Source: Bacteroides sp. (GTDB lineage Bacteria > Bacteroidota > Bacteroidia > Bacteroidales > Bacteroidaceae). From it: DNA of 59,229 nt. The DNA lies in NCBI GenBank assembly GCA_017472925.1, contig JAFUNS010000039.1, positions 1 to 59,229 of the forward strand. The letters run 5' to 3'. This document shows, in pieces, positions 2,914-59,229 of this stretch (positions within the stretch are counted from its first letter, which is position 1; the number at the start of each line of letters is the position of its first letter). The notes under the pieces are model-generated. The model worked only from the letters and a program-made list of their open reading frames with translations, ran no database searches and had not been told where the DNA came from. The position numbers were made by a program, and so were the translations under genes.

Positions 2914-3031
2914 AATGCACTAATTTATAAATTGCACGCCTATGATACTTGCGGGGAATGTTGCAGATGAAATCTATCCTTTTTCAGACTTAATCTTTGA
3001 CGCTCTATCTCCCGAAAGCATCTAAAAACAG

Positions 3032-3210
3032 ATAAAGGCAGGTCTTCTGACTTGTTTCTTCCGTGCGGCCTTCCCACCCCTACAGGCAGTGACCATAAAG
3101 AAAGCACGGAGCGTAATGAAACTCACAGCTACGGGTATAGTCTCGGATTTACACCGAAGTTCCCTTTTCATTCTTGGCGACTGATGCCACCTCAAACACC
3201 TTAATCCTGC
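3032..3210 (-). promoter_or_regulatory. Cobalamin (B12) riboswitch upstream of nrdDG
   Basis: Read on the minus strand, the region contains the hallmark segments of the cobalamin aptamer in the right order: a GGGAA segment, GGTGTAAATCCGAGACT, CCCGTAGCTGTGA, GTCACTGCCTG, GGGAAGGCCGCACGG, and the B12 box AAGTCAGAAGACCTGCC. It lies between an nrd promoter and the nrdD start, with about 118 nt left for an expression platform. The family normally turns genes off when adenosylcobalamin or a related corrinoid binds. The exact ends are approximate. Confidence 0.95.
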
Positions 3211-3211
3211 A

Positions 3212-3241
3212 CAAAAGTACTCAAATTATGTAAAAGGACAA
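3212..3241 (-). promoter_or_regulatory. Promoter of the riboswitch-nrdDG transcript
   Basis: On the minus strand TTG (3241-3239), a 19-bp spacer and TACTTTTG (3219-3212) match the Bacteroides -33/-7 promoter consensus. The predicted start lies about 3205, at the edge of the cobalamin aptamer. Confidence 0.75.
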
Positions 3242-43706: not shown

Positions 43707-43711
43707 CATTG

Positions 43712-43776
43712 TGTTTTTCATAGTATTAGATTTAAGGTTAACAAAAGGTTGGAGCAAAGCGTTGCTCCTTTTTTTT
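43712..43776 (+). ncRNA. Candidate small RNA of about 65 nt with intrinsic terminator
   Basis: A consensus promoter is followed within 45 bp by GGAGCAA-AGCG-TTGCTCC (43751-43768) and eight T, with no start codon and usable frame between. The body TTTTTCATAGTATTAGATTT then AAGGTTAAC looks like a sequence conserved upstream of terminators in other Bacteroides, from memory only. It is divergent from the ABC-F gene and convergent with purA, with a family A repeat after it. Confidence 0.6.
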
Positions 43777-43812
43777 GCCCATACGTTTCAGTATATCATT
43801 ATCATAAATATA

Positions 43813-52661: not shown

Positions 52662-53723
52662 TTAAGCCATCTTAATGTAATCCACAATCCACGCTCCTAC
52701 TTCCTTAGTGCCGTATTTTTCACCACCGGCAACCTGTATTTCAGGAGTACGTACGTTTGCATCGAGCGATGCATCCACAGCCTTGCGTATCAAAGCACCC
52801 TCCTCCTTCATGTTGAAGTATTCAAACAACATAGCAACCGAAAGGATTTGCGCCAACGGATTGGCAATATTCAAGCCCTTGGCTTGGGGCCATGAACCAT
52901 GAATAGGTTCAAATACAGGTGTGCTTTCACCGGTAGAGGCAGATGGCAACAAGCCCATAGAACCACTGATAACCGAACCTTCGTCTGTTAAAATATCACC
53001 AAACGTATTTTCCGTTACCATCACATCAAAGAAAGTCGGTTCCTGAATCATGCGCATAGCTGCATTGTCCACATACATATAGTCGGTAGTCACTTCCGGA
53101 TAGTTCGGAGCCATTTCCTGGGCAATCTGTCTCCACAAACGGGAAGAAGCCAACACATTGGCCTTGTCTACCACCGTAAGGTGCTTATTGCGTTTCATGG
53201 CATATTCAAAACCCACCTTCAGGATACGTTCTATTTCGGGACGGGTATAGTAATTAGTGTCATATGCCTTGTCATTGTCCTGATACTTTTCACCAAAATA
53301 CATACCTCCTGTCAGTTCACGGATACAGATAAAATCAGCATTTTCTACCAATTCAGCACGAAGCGGAGATTTATGAATCAAGCACTTGAAGGTTTGTACG
53401 GGACGGATGTTGGCAAACAGACCGAGTTTCTTGCGCATGGCCAACAAGCCTTGTTCGGGACGTACCTTGGCAGTGGGGTCATTATCAAATTTCGGATCGC
53501 CTACCGCCGAGAAGAGCACTGCATCGGCATTCTTACAAGTCTGATAGGTTGTTTCAGGAAAGGGGTCACCCACTTCGTCAATGGCATGGGCACCACAAAT
53601 GGCATATTCGTAGGTCACTTGGTGGCCGAACTTTTCACATACGGCGGTCATTACATCCACACCTACGGCGGATATTTCGGGGCCGATACCGTCACCGGCC
53701 AACACTGCAATTTTAATTTTCAT
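52662..53723 (-). CDS. leuB: 3-isopropylmalate dehydrogenase
   Basis: The 353-residue NAD-dependent enzyme oxidises and decarboxylates 3-isopropylmalate in leucine synthesis, and homologues also act on methylmalate from citramalate. It has AGDGIGPEI at residues 9-17, the substrate-binding [21 protein letters not shown] region, [15 protein letters not shown]-type metal ligands ([16 protein letters not shown]) and [10 protein letters not shown]. It is the last gene of the leu operon and overlaps the preceding synthase gene by 11 bases. Confidence 0.97.
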
Positions 53724-55251
53724 ACTCCTTTTCGATTATATTCAACATTTTCATCGTAGCTTTGATGGCAGCCTCCGTCTGGTCGGCATCAAGACCACGT
53801 GTACGGAAATCCATACCTTCGAAACTCCAATGGATGGTAGTCTGTACGAAGGCATCGGTACGTCCACCGGGCGGAATCGTTACCGCATAGTTAGTCAACA
53901 TGGGGAATTTACGTCCCAGTGTTACCTTGTATATTTTGCGCAGTGCCCGCACGAAAGCATCGTACTGACCGTCACCGCTGGAATTCTCTTCGTATTCCTT
54001 ACCGTTTATTTCCACCTTTACGGTTGCCATGGGTTTCAAACCATAAGCCAGATTCACAATGTAACTCTTCAGTTTCACGCGGTCGTCTTCCACATCGTGC
54101 TTCAGCACATCGCTCACGATATAGGGCAAATCTTCCGGAGTCACCTGCTCTTTCTTGTCACCCAATTCAATGATGCGTTCCGTCACCTTGCGCATGGATT
54201 CTTCATCCAGTGCCAAGCCCAACTCCTCCAGATTCTTGCGGATATTGGCCTTACCACTGTTCTTACCCAAAGCATATTCACGTTTACGTCCGAAGCGTTC
54301 GGGCAACAGGTCATTACAATACAAATTGTTTTTGTTGTCGCCATCGGCATGAACCCCTGCCACTTGCGTAAACACATGCTCGCCGATGATGGGCTTATTG
54401 GCCGGAATCATCACACCCGAATAAGACTCCACTACCCTACTCACATCGTTCAGTCTGCTTTCGTCAATGTTGGTAGTCGCCTCGAAATGGTCTTTCAGGA
54501 TAGCCTGTACACTCGATAAGGGTGCATTTCCTGCCCGTTCTCCCAATCCGTTGATGGTGGTATGCAATCCTTTCACCCCACTAAGTACCGCTGCCAGCAC
54601 ATTGCTCACCGCCAAGTCATAATCATTATGGGCATGGAAATCGAAGTGCTTGTCTGGGTAATGTTTCTTCATCTTACGCATATACTCGATAACTTGCAAG
54701 GGATTCAGGATACCCAAGGTGTCGGGCAACATAAACCGGCGGATACAAGTATCTTTCAAACCGTCCATCAGTTGGAATACATACTCGGGCGAATCTTTCA
54801 TACCATTGCTCCAGTCTTCCAGATAGACATTCACGGCTATGTCACATTCATCGGCATAACGCACCACTTCCCGGATGTCTTTGATATGTTCTTCAGGTGT
54901 TTTCTTCAGCTGGTGGACACAATGTTTCAACGAGCCTTTACATAACAAGTTTATAACCTTACATCCTGTCCGTTGTATCCAGTCTACGGATGCATGACCG
55001 TCACAAAAGCCCAACACTTCCACCTTGTGCAACAAGTTTCGTCGTGCAGCCCAGTCACAAATCATTCTCACGGCCTCAAACTCCCCTTCCGATACACGTG
55101 CCGATGCCACTTCTACTCTATCCACCTTCAGCTCTTCCAGCAGCAGACGGGCAATCATCAGCTTTTCATGCGGCATAAACGACACTCCACTGGTCTGTTC
55201 TCCGTCACGGAGTGTCGTATCCATTATTTCTATCTTGACGCGTTCTCCCAT
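53713..55251 (-). CDS. Alpha-isopropylmalate/citramalate synthase family protein
   Basis: The 512-residue HMGL-like synthase has [14 protein letters not shown] (metal and 2-oxoacid site, residues 12-25), [13 protein letters not shown] (metal-binding His pair) and a C-terminal LeuA-type regulatory domain ([13 protein letters not shown]). It is a second synthase distinct from leuA at 57263. Operon context and the TSGVSF motif favour (R)-citramalate synthase (cimA), which makes isoleucine precursors from pyruvate using the same LeuCD and LeuB. A leucine-pathway isozyme is the alternative. It overlaps leuD by 22 bases and leuB by 11. Confidence 0.85.
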
Positions 55252-55847
55252 GCTTCAATCTTATCTTTGTTTTCTACCAGGAAGTCAATGTCGTCCAGGG
55301 CATTCATCAGACAATATTTCTTATAACCATTGATATCGAAGGTTTCGCTATGACCAGTCGTCAGGTTAGTCACGGTCTGGTTGGGTACATCCACGCGTAC
55401 CTCAGCCTGCGGATTGGCGGCTACGGTATCGAACAGTTCTTGTTGGAAGTCCTTGCTTACCACCACAGGCAGTACAAAACAGTTCAACAGATTGTTACGA
55501 TGAATGTCAGCAAAACTACTACTGATAACTACCCGCACACCATAACCGGCAATGGCCCAAGCGGCATGCTCACGACTGGAACCGGAACCCCAGTTCTGTC
55601 CGCCGATGATGATTTCGTGCACACCCGGCTTGGGTGCTTCCGCATATTCTGCACGGTTCATGACAAAATCGGGTACGGGATTTCCTTCGGCATCGTAACG
55701 CAGGTCGTGCATAAAGGCATCGCCAAAGAATTGCGGATCGCGTGTAGTACTGGCCAGATAGCGTGCCGGAATGATGAGGTCGGTATTGCAGTTGTCTATT
55801 TGGATAGGCAAACAGGTCGATTGTATTATGTCAAATTTCTGTTTCAT
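55230..55847 (-). CDS. leuD: 3-isopropylmalate dehydratase small subunit
   Basis: This 205-residue swivel-domain subunit of isopropylmalate isomerase has the conserved NCNTDLIIPARYL substrate segment and GGQNWGSGSSREHAAWAI, the aconitase small-domain signature with the active-site SREHA. It completes the LeuC active site for conversion of 2- to 3-isopropylmalate and equally citraconate intermediates. It follows leuC by 15 bp, and the second synthase gene begins within its 3' end. Confidence 0.97.
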   Translation of the reverse strand: MKQKFDIIQSTCLPIQIDNCNTDLIIPARYLASTTRDPQFFGDAFMHDLRYDAEGNPVPDFVMNRAEYAEAPKPGVHEIIIGGQNWGSGSSREHAAWAIAGYGVRVVISSSFADIHRNNLLNCFVLPVVVSKDFQQELFDTVAANPQAEVRVDVPNQTVTNLTTGHSETFDINGYKKYCLMNALDDIDFLVENKDKIEAWENASR

Positions 55848-55862
55848 ATCACATACATTTAT

Positions 55863-57251
55863 TTATAACTTTCTGGGGTCTGTTACTACACCTGTCACAG
55901 CCGATGCGGCCACAACGAGTGGCGAGGCAAGGATGGTGCGCGCACCGGGTCCCTGACGGCCCACAAAGTTTCGGTTACTGGTCGAGATGGAGAGCTTGCC
56001 GGCAGGCACCTTGTCGGGGTTCATGGCCAGACACGACGAGCACGAAGGCAGGCGCAGTTCAAATCCGGCTTCTTCCAGAATCTTGTCGATACCTTCGTCA
56101 ATAATCTGTTGGCGTACCAACCATGAACCGGGTACCAACCAGGCCACTACGTTCGGAGCCTTCTTCTTGCCTTTTACCACAGAGGCAAACGCACGGAAGT
56201 CCTCAATGCGGCCGTTGGTACAGGCTCCTAAGAAGCAGTAGTCTACGGGTGTACCTTCCAATTTCTGTCCGGGCTGGAACTTCATGTAGTCCAGCATGGC
56301 AAGGAACTGGATACGGTCAGCTTCGGCCACTTCGTCCAACGCAGGGATACACTCGTCGATGGCAATGCCTGCACCGGGATTGGTACCATAGGTAATGCGC
56401 GGAGCGATGTCTTCGGCACGATAAGTCACTTCCTTGTCGAAAACGGCATCGGGATCACTGTAAAGCTGTTTCCAAGCTTCCACGGCCTTGTCCCAAGCAT
56501 CTCCCTTGGGGGCATATTCTCGGTTCTTGAGGTAGGCGAAGGTGATTTCATCCGGGGCGATAAGTCCGGCACGACTGCCCATCTCGATACTGAGGTTCGA
56601 GAGTGTCAGGCGTCCCTCCATACTCATGTTACGCACGGTAGAACCCGCATACTCCACCGCATAGCCGGTAGCGCCGGAAGTGGTCATCTGTGCCATGATA
56701 TAAAGAGCTACATCCTTGGCGGTAGTACCCTGCGGCAATGTTCCTTCGATATTGATCCGCATAGTCTTTGGTTTGCTTTGCAGAATAGTCTGAGAGGCCA
56801 AGACTTGCGCTACTTCACTGGTACCGATACCCATGGCAATAGCACCTACAGCACCGTGAGTAGAAGTGTGCGAGTCACCACAAACAATGGTCATACCTGG
56901 CAACGAGAGTGCCTTTTCGGGGCCTACCACATGGATGATACCATTATCTTTTGTTCCCATGGCAAAGTGTCGGATACCAAACTCCGCACAATTCTTCGCT
57001 AATGTCTCCACCTGTTTGCGTCCTACGGGGTCGTCGATGCGTTCCTGTTGGTCACTCGGGGTGTTATGGTCGGGCATAGCCACTACCTGTTCGGGACGAA
57101 ACACGCCTATGTTCTTATCTCTCAATGTATCGAATGCCTGTGGTGTAGTCACTTCGTGGCAATACAATCTATCAATATAAAGTTGGGTGGGTCCATCTTC
57201 CACTTTCTGCACCACATGGGCATCCCAAATCTTATCAAATAACGTTTTCAT
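55863..57251 (-). CDS. leuC: 3-isopropylmalate dehydratase large subunit
   Basis: The 462-residue aconitase-family subunit carries the [4Fe-4S] ligands in GACTNGR and SCSSCLA, together with [21 protein letters not shown] and [16 protein letters not shown]. It lacks its own swivel domain, which LeuD provides. It follows leuA by 11 bp. The cluster is oxygen-labile, consistent with an anaerobe. Confidence 0.98.
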
Positions 57252-57262
57252 AATGCGTGATC

Positions 57263-58759
57263 TTAATTCTTGAACTTGTTGATACAGTCAATATAAGCTT
57301 CTACGGATGCAGCAATGATATCTGTATTGGCACCGAAGCCGTAATACATCTGTCCGTCATATTCCACCTGCATATGTACCTTACCCATATCGTCAGAACC
57401 CTTGCTGATGGCCTGAATAGTAAATTCCTTCAGTTCCATATGGCGGTCGATAATTTTCTTCAAAGCCTTGATGGCAGCATCCACAGGACCGTTACCACTG
57501 GCAGCCGCTTCAAAGCGTTCACCCGAGATGTTCAATCCCAAACTGGCAACCGAACGTACTCCCACGCCACTGGTCACTTGCAGGAATTCCAACTTGATAT
57601 GGTGGTTATCAGCACGATCTGCACCTGCCAATACGAGAATATCATCATCCGTAATGTCCTTCTTCTTATCCGCCAGTTTCAAGAAATCTTCATATACCTT
57701 ATCCAACTTATCTTGATCCAGTTCTACACCCATCACATGCAAACGATGTTTCAGTGCAGCTCGTCCGCTACGGGCAGTCAATACGATAGAGCTGTCGTCT
57801 ATACCCACATCTTTCGGATCGATGATTTCGTAGGTTTGCACATTCTTCAGTACACCATCTTGATGGATACCGCTGGAGTGTGCAAAAGCATTTCGTCCCA
57901 CAATAGCCTTATTGGGCTGTACCGGCATGTTCATCAGACTCGACACCATACGACTGGCCGGATAAATCTTCTGAGTATTGATATTGGTTTCAATGTCAAT
58001 GTCATGATGACACTTCACAATCATGGCCACCTCTTCCAAAGAAGTATTACCGGCACGTTCACCAATTCCGTTGATAGTCACTTCCACCTGACGGGCACCA
58101 TTCAATACCCCGGCAATTGTGTTAGCGGTTGCCATACCCAAATCATTATGACAATGGGTAGAGATAATCGCCTTATCGATGTTATCCACATGATCCATCA
58201 AATACTTGATCTTAGCCCCGTATTCGTACGGCAAACAATATCCTGTAGTATCAGGAATATTCACTACCGTAGCACCAGCCTTAATAACGGCTTCTATTAC
58301 TCTGGCCAGATACTCATTATCGGTACGACCAGCATCTTCTGCATAAAACTCTACATCATCTACATAACGACGAGCATATTTAACGGCAGCTACAGCCCGT
58401 TCAATGATTTCTTCACGATTAGAATTGAATTTATATTTTATATGCGAATCCGATGTTCCAATACCGGTATGAATACGCTTATGTTTAGCAAATCGTAACG
58501 CTTCGGCAGCTACATCGATATCTTTTTCTACCGCACGTGTCAAAGCACAAATGGTAGGCCAAGTAACAGCTTTCGATATTTCAATCACCGAATTATAATC
58601 ACCAGGACTTGATATCGGAAAACCCGCTTCAATAACATCTACGCCCAAGGCTTCCAATTGCTTGGCCACTTGAATTTTCTCTACCGTATTCAACTGGCAT
58701 CCTGGTACTTGTTCACCATCACGCAAGGTGGTGTCAAAAATAAACAATCTATCGCTCAT
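57263..58759 (-). CDS. leuA: 2-isopropylmalate synthase
   Basis: The 498-residue enzyme condenses acetyl-CoA with 2-oxoisovalerate, the first committed step of leucine synthesis. It has [14 protein letters not shown] at residues 10-23, [14 protein letters not shown] (metal ligands), [16 protein letters not shown], and a C-terminal regulatory domain ([16 protein letters not shown]) that normally binds leucine for feedback inhibition. It is the first structural gene of the leu operon. An attenuator lies between its promoter and start. Confidence 0.98.
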
Positions 58760-58799: not shown

Positions 58800-58832
58800 A
58801 AAAAAACCTTTCACACAGGAAAGTGAGAAAGG
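58800..58832 (-). terminator. Attenuator terminator of the leu operon
   Basis: On the minus strand CCTTTCTCAC pairs with GTGTGAAAGG (one T-T mismatch), with a six-base loop followed by seven T (58806-58800). It lies about 40 bp before the leuA start. Ten bases of its 5' arm and loop (CTCACTTTCC, 58827-58818) can pair instead with GGAAAGTGAG in the leader peptide gene. Confidence 0.88.
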
Positions 58833-58862
58833 CTTCAATATATCTTCAACAATTACATACAT

Positions 58863-58958
58863 CTATGCACGACACTCACTTTCCGCTAACTTCGTTAGTA
58901 GAATAATAATACCGCATAGCAAAATATGTAAAAACATTTGGTTCATTTTCTCATTCAT
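58863..58958 (-). CDS. Leader peptide of the leu operon attenuator
   Basis: A 31-residue frame starts at the ATG at 58958 and ends with TAG at 58865-58863. Its centre (residues 12-24) reads ILLCGIIILLTKL, with four Ile and five Leu codons in 13. The 3' end of the gene contains GGAAAGTGAG (58884-58875), which is complementary to the terminator hairpin. A ribosome stalled at the Ile/Leu run would leave this segment free to form the antiterminator. The regulator-type role is inferred from structure. There is no homology claim. Too short for routine gene calls. Confidence 0.85.
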   Translation of the reverse strand: MNEKMNQMFLHILLCGIIILLTKLAESECRA

Positions 58959-58973
58959 TTTAATTGAACGGGA

Positions 58974-59004
58974 CAAAATTATGAGTTTATTTTTTAACCA
59001 CAAA
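58974..59004 (-). promoter_or_regulatory. Promoter of the leu operon leader
   Basis: On the minus strand TTTG (59004-59001), a 19-bp spacer and TAATTTTG (58981-58974) match the Bacteroides consensus exactly. The leader peptide begins about 16 bp downstream. The sequence between here and the rRNA terminator shows nothing else. Confidence 0.85.
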
Positions 59005-59123: not shown

Positions 59124-59135
59124 CTCTGAAAAAAA

Positions 59136-59229
<94 letters not shown>

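Follow-up and report, generated by a model that had tools for sequence, protein, structure and literature searches.

Closest described systems

The enterobacterial leu attenuator combines a leucine-rich leader peptide, rare CUA codons and alternative antiterminator and terminator structures before leuA, the rare control codons being a trait of this leader; T-box RNAs bring about antitermination in response to uncharged tRNA. Amino-acid attenuation was said in 2010 to have been shown only in Proteobacteria and Actinobacteria, according to the accessible text of PMC2965389. The accessible parts of other papers add three pointers for Bacteroidetes: the Bacteroid-trp RNA (RF01692) appears among the probable cis-regulatory RNAs tabulated for this phylum (PMC2864571); 5' UTRs of B. 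thetaiotaomicron contain short ORFs reminiscent of leader peptides (PMC7366714); and strong indications that leader-peptide attenuators precede amino-acid operons are reported for Flavobacterium psychrophilum, with 5' elements of pheA and hisG being named (PMC9723704). A preliminary description of the locus studied here called such control little documented in Bacteroidetes, a fair statement provided that it is not taken to mean unknown, as the accessible text of PMC9723704 and the Bacteroid-trp entry of PMC2864571 make clear. Our literature search, in which subscription journals were thinly covered, listed no paper in which an attenuator of leu or ilv genes is described for Bacteroides or for Bacteroidales at large; it seems, then, that this kind of attenuator is known and that its branched-chain form in Bacteroidales is undescribed.

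We analysed a contig of 59,229 nucleotides, hereafter the window, and found on its minus strand what is very probably a ribosome-mediated transcription attenuator of a leuACD-cimA-leuB operon. It resembles the enterobacterial leu attenuator, the latter as generally described, in its leucine-rich leader, its rare CUA codons and its alternative antiterminator and terminator before leuA; it differs in having Ile codons too, in the position of segment 2 at the 3' end of the leader ORF, in phylum, and in the lack of any Rfam match. It is comparable to Bacteroid-trp as a probable cis-regulatory RNA of Bacteroidetes, the single Bacteroid-trp match found elsewhere in this genome (70 bits) lying near a leader-like ORF that contains a pair of adjacent Trp codons, but it concerns another operon and another amino acid. 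With the attenuators of F. psychrophilum it shares the phylum and a position ahead of amino-acid biosynthesis operons, and the accessible text of that study names no leu or ilv leader and contains no codon or pairing analysis (PMC9723704). Unlike in the T-box, the ribosome would be the sensor in the leu leader. An Rfam search of the leader returned no match to any family at E values up to 1. Three covariance models also gave no match: RF00512, the enterobacterial Leu_leader (leuL), at the leader, RF01692 at the window leader, and the T-box model in the window or leader. Two other RNAs were recognized elsewhere in the window, a Cobalamin riboswitch at 3020-3218 (minus strand, 93.4 bits) and a member of the FopS family of paralogous sRNAs at 43711-43778 (plus strand, 78.9 bits).

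The leader upstream of leuA

Between 59004 and 58800, the minus strand carries in order a promoter, an Ile/Leu leader ORF, a 10-base antiterminator strand, a terminator and seven T, followed by leuA:

58974..59004, minus strand: promoter TTTG-N19-TAATTTTG, Bacteroidetes-type
58863..58946, minus strand: leader peptide gene MNQMFLHILLCGIIILLTKLAESECRA, 27 codons and a stop, start placed as in relatives
58896..58910, minus strand: control codons Ile13-Ile14-Ile15-Leu16-Leu17 (ATT ATT ATT CTA CTA)
58886..58898, minus strand: hairpin H1, CTAAC-GAA-GTTAG, whose 5' arm takes in the last Leu codon
58875..58884, minus strand: segment 2, the antiterminator 5' strand GGAAAGTGAG
58818..58827, minus strand: segment 3, CTCACTTTCC, inner terminator 5' arm and loop, also the antiterminator 3' strand
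58800..58836, minus strand: intrinsic terminator, segments 3:4 with seven T (stem 58836-58803, seven T 58806-58800)

The promoter proposed in the preliminary description does read on the minus strand from 59004 to 58974, and it follows the Bacteroidetes consensus; a sigma-70 promoter scan, ill-suited to this phylum, reported 3 sites vs 5.7 expected in shuffles. The terminator described ahead of leuA is present with its seven T, and its stretch folds at -16.4 kcal/mol (z = -6.1), a stability that none of 200 shuffles equalled; the whole leader RNA folds with z = -3.4 vs shuffles. The leader frame contains ILLCGIIILLTKL, and a longer reading of the ORF has 31 codons, with a start at 58958 and the same stop at 58863. 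The perfect 10-base complement to the terminator 5' arm was likewise borne out, GGAAAGTGAG being exactly complementary to CTCACTTTCC, in pairings that covary in the genus. Just upstream of the leu promoter lie, on the same strand, a strong terminator-like hairpin (59127-59092) and a 5S rRNA gene (59133-59229); rRNA genes also stand ahead of the leu operon in P. vulgatus (L005, L163), L003 and B. fragilis (L136), and none were found in the examined stretches of L014 and L020.

Downstream of the leader, the operon reads leuA-leuC-leuD-cimA-leuB:

57263..58759, minus strand: leuA, 2-isopropylmalate synthase (NF002086 and TIGR00973 above cut-off)
55863..57251, minus strand: leuC (TIGR00170 above cut-off)
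55230..55847, minus strand: leuD (TIGR00171 above cut-off)
53713..55251, minus strand: second synthase, probable citramalate synthase (cimA-like), best model NF042433 at 656.7 bits
52662..53723, minus strand: leuB, 3-isopropylmalate dehydrogenase (TIGR00169, 426.8 bits, above cut-off)

NF042433 is a Leptospira citramalate synthase model with a cut-off of 950, which the second synthase does not reach; the next family scores 343.8, and the gene is, by its sequence, probably cimA.

We infer from these parts the following course of translation, stalling and termination in cells. Transcription would start near 58966, and a ribosome would enter the leader ORF behind RNA polymerase. When charged Leu-tRNA (and, a little upstream, charged Ile-tRNA) is short, this ribosome would stall at Ile13-Leu17, hold H1 open and leave segment 2 free to pair with segment 3 before segment 4 is made, so that no terminator would form and the operon would be transcribed. 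When the amino acids are plentiful, the ribosome would read on and cover segment 2, and the 3:4 terminator would halt transcription before leuA. The Ile codons would be included because cimA and the shared LeuCD and LeuB enzymes would make 2-oxobutyrate for isoleucine.

Conservation and covariation in the genus

We searched 61 genomes of the genus (Phocaeicola), found leuA in 56 of them, and examined 54 of the 57 leuA matches, leaving out G040 and G041 (contig edges) and G019 (partial). The leader parts are present in 53 of the 54 upstream regions; the 54th (L009) runs into the end of its contig and stands outside the genus count for its short upstream DNA, its 163 visible bases containing the 3' part of the leader. 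All 53 leaders have TAnnTTTG 43-63 nt upstream of a conserved CAT, and the exact TTTG box at N18-22 is absent from 15 of them. This CAT opens the conserved HILL, and nearly all genus leaders have an in-frame ATG 18 nt ahead of it (15 nt in L048). Because this register is shared by nearly all genus relatives, the start is probably the second ATG (58946), giving 27 codons rather than the 31 first proposed; the frame and the Ile/Leu content of the leader gene stand as described.

The peptide HILLCGIIILL is well conserved within the genus. Insertions and deletions occur in three-base steps before the Leu pair and as one-base changes after it, so the frame is kept only up to the control codons; both this part of the frame and the antiterminator pairing are kept in the relatives. 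In L026 and L045, the leader ends right after the Leu pair, ahead of segment 2, and a ribosome at the stop codon would thus be positioned differently.

Among 49 distinct genus sequences, H1 shows changes on both sides at all four counted pairs; for H1 and the antiterminator together, 96.8% of cells are paired and double-sided changes are found at 7 of 14 pairs. Compared with 500 shuffles, four of five measures for these two elements were reached by none, and the fifth (further pair types) by 27. In the genus alignment, 99.8% of terminator cells are paired. The window itself carries a compensatory change, GGAAAG/CTTTCC vs GGGAAG/CTTCCC in most relatives. A mismatch in the terminator is kept in 45 of 49 rows (A1 columns 132 and 145: T-C 26, T-T 17, C-T 1, C-C 1); the 5' base concerned takes part in antiterminator pairing, as though the terminator stem had been tuned to weakness at that position.

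Distribution across Bacteroidales

A covariance model of H1 and the terminator gave matches in 125 of 301 family genomes and in 20 of 30 genera, leu and ilv leaders being pooled in these counts. We read 40 of the matches: the 20 taken from other genera each precede leuA, and the other 20, which are weaker, each precede ilvD. The idea that the weaker matches are noise was rejected for the 20 that were read, as every one lies upstream of an ilvD-like gene.

We also searched the genome contigs of 84,980 species for a pattern of exact antiterminator and terminator strands, for which simple arithmetic on uniform sequence gives about one match by chance; at least 119 stretches matched. Among the 119 matches listed, 114 lie before leuA, 1 lies before ilvD and 4 are undecided. 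The 80 matches listed by record title belong to Bacteroidales (Bacteroides, Phocaeicola, Mediterranea, Parabacteroides, Tannerella, Paludibacteraceae and others), save two from Marinilabiliaceae, which NCBI places in Marinilabiliales; of this pair, L146 looks to be there by chance. L179 and L236 are upstream of leuA yet have no leader ORF by our rule.

We then applied a terminator rule (-12 kcal/mol or better, at most 130 nt), which relies on neither the covariance model nor the pattern. In an order sample made of the best-matching 29 leuA genes, one of them from the window's own family, 22 have a terminator by this rule and 7 have none; among the 22, L284 lacks a convincing leader. For family genomes negative with the covariance model, the figures are 8 of 13 with a terminator and 5 without. 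Fifteen further, more distant genomes of the order gave five clear leaders (L406, L407, L413, L414, L419), two weak ones, one doubtful one (L405) and seven without. Outside the order, no Ile/Leu leader with a terminator was seen by eye in the best 28 of 66 genomes with leuA. The leu leader is, then, widespread in Bacteroidales, though not universal.

Antiterminator pairing and masked-ribosome folding

In order to assess the antiterminator without an alignment, we computed the best duplex between each leader RNA and the terminator 5' arm plus loop and compared it with 100 shuffles, loci selected by the pattern being excluded. The duplex is at or below the 5% shuffle level in 108 of 123 leaders, many of which are kin, so that the counts are not independent; by set, this is the case for 52/53 in the genus, 18/20 for ilv, 17/20 in the family, 5/8 in the model-negative family genomes and 16/22 in the order. 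The other 15 fall short of that level. Five ilv leaders at least (L088, L089, L090, L092, L099) have a best duplex that begins away from the expected segment.

We then masked a ribosome footprint from -15 to +12 around the A site and folded the window RNA up to the terminator loop or at full length. Up to the terminator loop, the antiterminator stands at 0.88-1.0 for A-site codons 3-18 and at 0 from codon 19, compared with 0.16 when no ribosome is present. At full length, the terminator is mostly the stabler state, even for stalls at Leu16-17 (antiterminator 0.15-0.31), and the antiterminator persists mainly for stalls at Ile13-Leu17, at variable levels (0.15-0.96). Given this stabler terminator, the switch modelled here must be kinetic, the capture of segment 3 preceding the synthesis of segment 4.

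Under a strict switch rule, 88 of 122 leaders switch in the model: 34/53 in the genus, 18/20 for ilv, 14/20 in the family, 3/7 in the model-negative family genomes and 19/22 in the order. We looked at the two codons ahead of the last permissive codon: Leu is found there in 43/53 and 47/53 genus leaders, 9/19 and 13/19 of the family set, and 10/20 and 13/20 of the order set, and Val or Ile in 16/20 and 17/20 ilv leaders. In this model, the control codons are so placed that a stalled ribosome would free the antiterminator and a ribosome at the stop codon would block it.

As a separate observation, we had considered that segment 1 always hides segment 2 when no ribosome is present. Such hiding is seen in the genus set (median antiterminator 0.04) and in the order set (0.065); as a general rule it is contradicted by medians of 0.665 in other Bacteroidaceae and 0.795 in ilv leaders.

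Control codons

Across 102 leu leaders, 53 of them from one genus, Leu makes up 21% and Ile 16% of residues, shares that are inflated since the ORFs were picked for most Ile, Leu and Val. As to placement, Leu occupies codon -5 before segment 2 in 82 and codon -4 in 76 of the 102 leaders, and peptides differ widely between families while their Leu codons stay at about the same distance from the antiterminator. The 20 ilv leaders have Val before segment 2 at -5 in 14, at -4 in 12 and at -6 in 10, and Val/Ile codons stand near the control position, e.g., in MNITTLNNLAVLHIIRVVVVTLGA.

Codon choice is skewed as well. CTA accounts for 181 of 535 Leu codons in leu leaders vs 3.9% of 335 in nine window genes, and GTC for 46 of 92 Val codons in ilv leaders vs 5.7% of 264 in the same nine genes; one has to keep in mind that this sets leaders of many species, about half of the leu leaders coming from one genus, against genes of a single one.

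These data bear on a reading in which the ORF encodes an arrest peptide, whose nascent chain would itself halt the ribosome on sensing leucine in its free form or some other ligand, instead of the codons being slowed by a shortage of charged tRNA. The strong peptide conservation in Phocaeicola and Bacteroides, including a Gly and often a Cys between the Leu/Ile runs, is what such a peptide could produce, but in the leaders of Parabacteroides, Tannerella and others nothing beyond the Leu/Ile content and its placement is shared, CTA, a rare codon, is overrepresented, and in ilv leaders Val/Ile codons are found instead; we hold an arrest peptide to be very unlikely and ribosome-mediated attenuation to be the better account of these codons.

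Isoleucine codons and cimA

The preliminary description attributed the Ile codons to the second synthase, through which the operon might serve both pathways. Our prediction linking Ile codons to cimA was fixed before further operons were examined, some leaders being known by then and operon content not. Among the at least 119 pattern loci, 66 operons have cimA, of which 65 have a leader, with a mean of 4.8 Ile codons; 52 of the 119 listed are undecidable for cimA, and the sole decidable one without it (L149) has 6 Leu and 0 Ile codons. Further operons with cimA gave 41 leaders with 1-7 Ile codons and six more with 3-7; L248, with cimA and a single Ile codon, goes against a simple rule.

As for operons without cimA, its absence being judged solely within the DNA stretch examined for each, the Ile codons number 0 in L367, 0 in L380, 2 in L382 and 5 in L419; with L149 included, clear operons of this kind have 0-2 Ile codons in four of five cases, with L419 as the counterexample. 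L405 also has no cimA and 0 Ile codons; it is doubtful as a leader since its operon runs on into ilvD and likely ilvB. A single genus (g14) contains both situations, with 0 and 2 Ile codons without cimA (L380, L382) and 5 with it (L420). A Mann-Whitney comparison of Ile codons by cimA, kinship being uncorrected, gives p = 0.0008 with six operons without cimA and p = 0.003 minus L405. No leader was found for L408, L415 and L416 (without cimA) or for L409, L410 and L418 (with cimA), and four loci were unusable: L421, L423 and L424, where none of the five proteins matched, and L422, with leuC and leuD and no leuA.

The number of Ile codons in the leu leader is, thus, likely linked to the presence of cimA. 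For the attribution to the second synthase, its best score being cimA-like and the few or no Ile codons in most operons without cimA speak in favour, and its score below the cut-off and L419 speak against; that the Ile codons are present because this enzyme would serve isoleucine is supported, not proven.

Two other explanations were weighed. The RNA could be controlled by a binding protein or a ligand, in the manner of a riboswitch, with the ORF being incidental: H1 and the terminator are stable and a long tract is conserved at the nucleotide level in the genus, but codon identity varies with operon content and Rfam offers no match at E values up to 1, so we consider this even less probable than an arrest peptide. 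Least probable of all is that the short ORF simply encodes a conserved small protein, has a terminator of its own and plays no part in leuA control, for despite the conservation of HILLCGIIILL in the genus, the peptides of other families are largely different while Leu codons keep their place, several genus members have single-base frame shifts after the Leu pair, segment 2 covaries with the terminator from inside the ORF, and 114 of the 119 pattern matches listed lie before leuA. We, thus, retain ribosome-mediated attenuation as the reading of this leader.

Other leaders of the same genome and significance

The genome of the window has leaders of a similar kind before ilvD, hisG and pheA, in addition to Bacteroid-trp, an RNA already known, and to a candidate upstream of thrA (G000:C68 for L317, G000:C29 for L318 and L321, G000:C48 for L316, G000:C10 for L319). 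The ilvD leader (G000:C48) reads MNMATSINLSVLHIIRVVVVTSRGEKGYMY and is followed by a terminator hairpin with four T, judged by eye. For hisG, the leader MQRVSTIHHHHYPNE precedes a hairpin and a T-rich stretch, seen by eye and not reported by the terminator scan, with a pairing of -15.9 kcal/mol. For pheA, the leader MKALYNTYFYFFYYFYFSNKVKREFVCVR is accompanied by a terminator (-13.9 kcal/mol) and by a duplex of -22.5 kcal/mol that includes a perfect antiterminator of 11 bases; 58 of 60 genus genomes have DNA matching it. Upstream of the thrA-like gene lies a Thr/Met-rich ORF, MTMCYLHMTATMRMWTMTTTMMTPRG, with no clear terminator.

On this basis, we lean towards the view that leader-peptide attenuators form a genome-wide set in Bacteroidales (leu, ilv, his, phe, trp, perhaps thr), in which the codon mix tracks the enzymes of the operon and the Ile codons of the leu leader follow cimA. 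Such a set, if real, would mean that transcription-translation coupling is at work in Bacteroidetes, and the leu leader would offer a natural readout of it in a phylum that, to our knowledge, largely does without Shine-Dalgarno starts. The bias towards rare codons suggests that these leaders are sensitive, testable sensors in Bacteroides. With this locus, amino-acid attenuation would reach the branched-chain operons of bacteria that dominate in the gut. Of the new points, we find most interesting the tendency of a leader's codon content to follow the gene content of its operon; the link between Ile codons and cimA may then predict which amino acids each operon senses.
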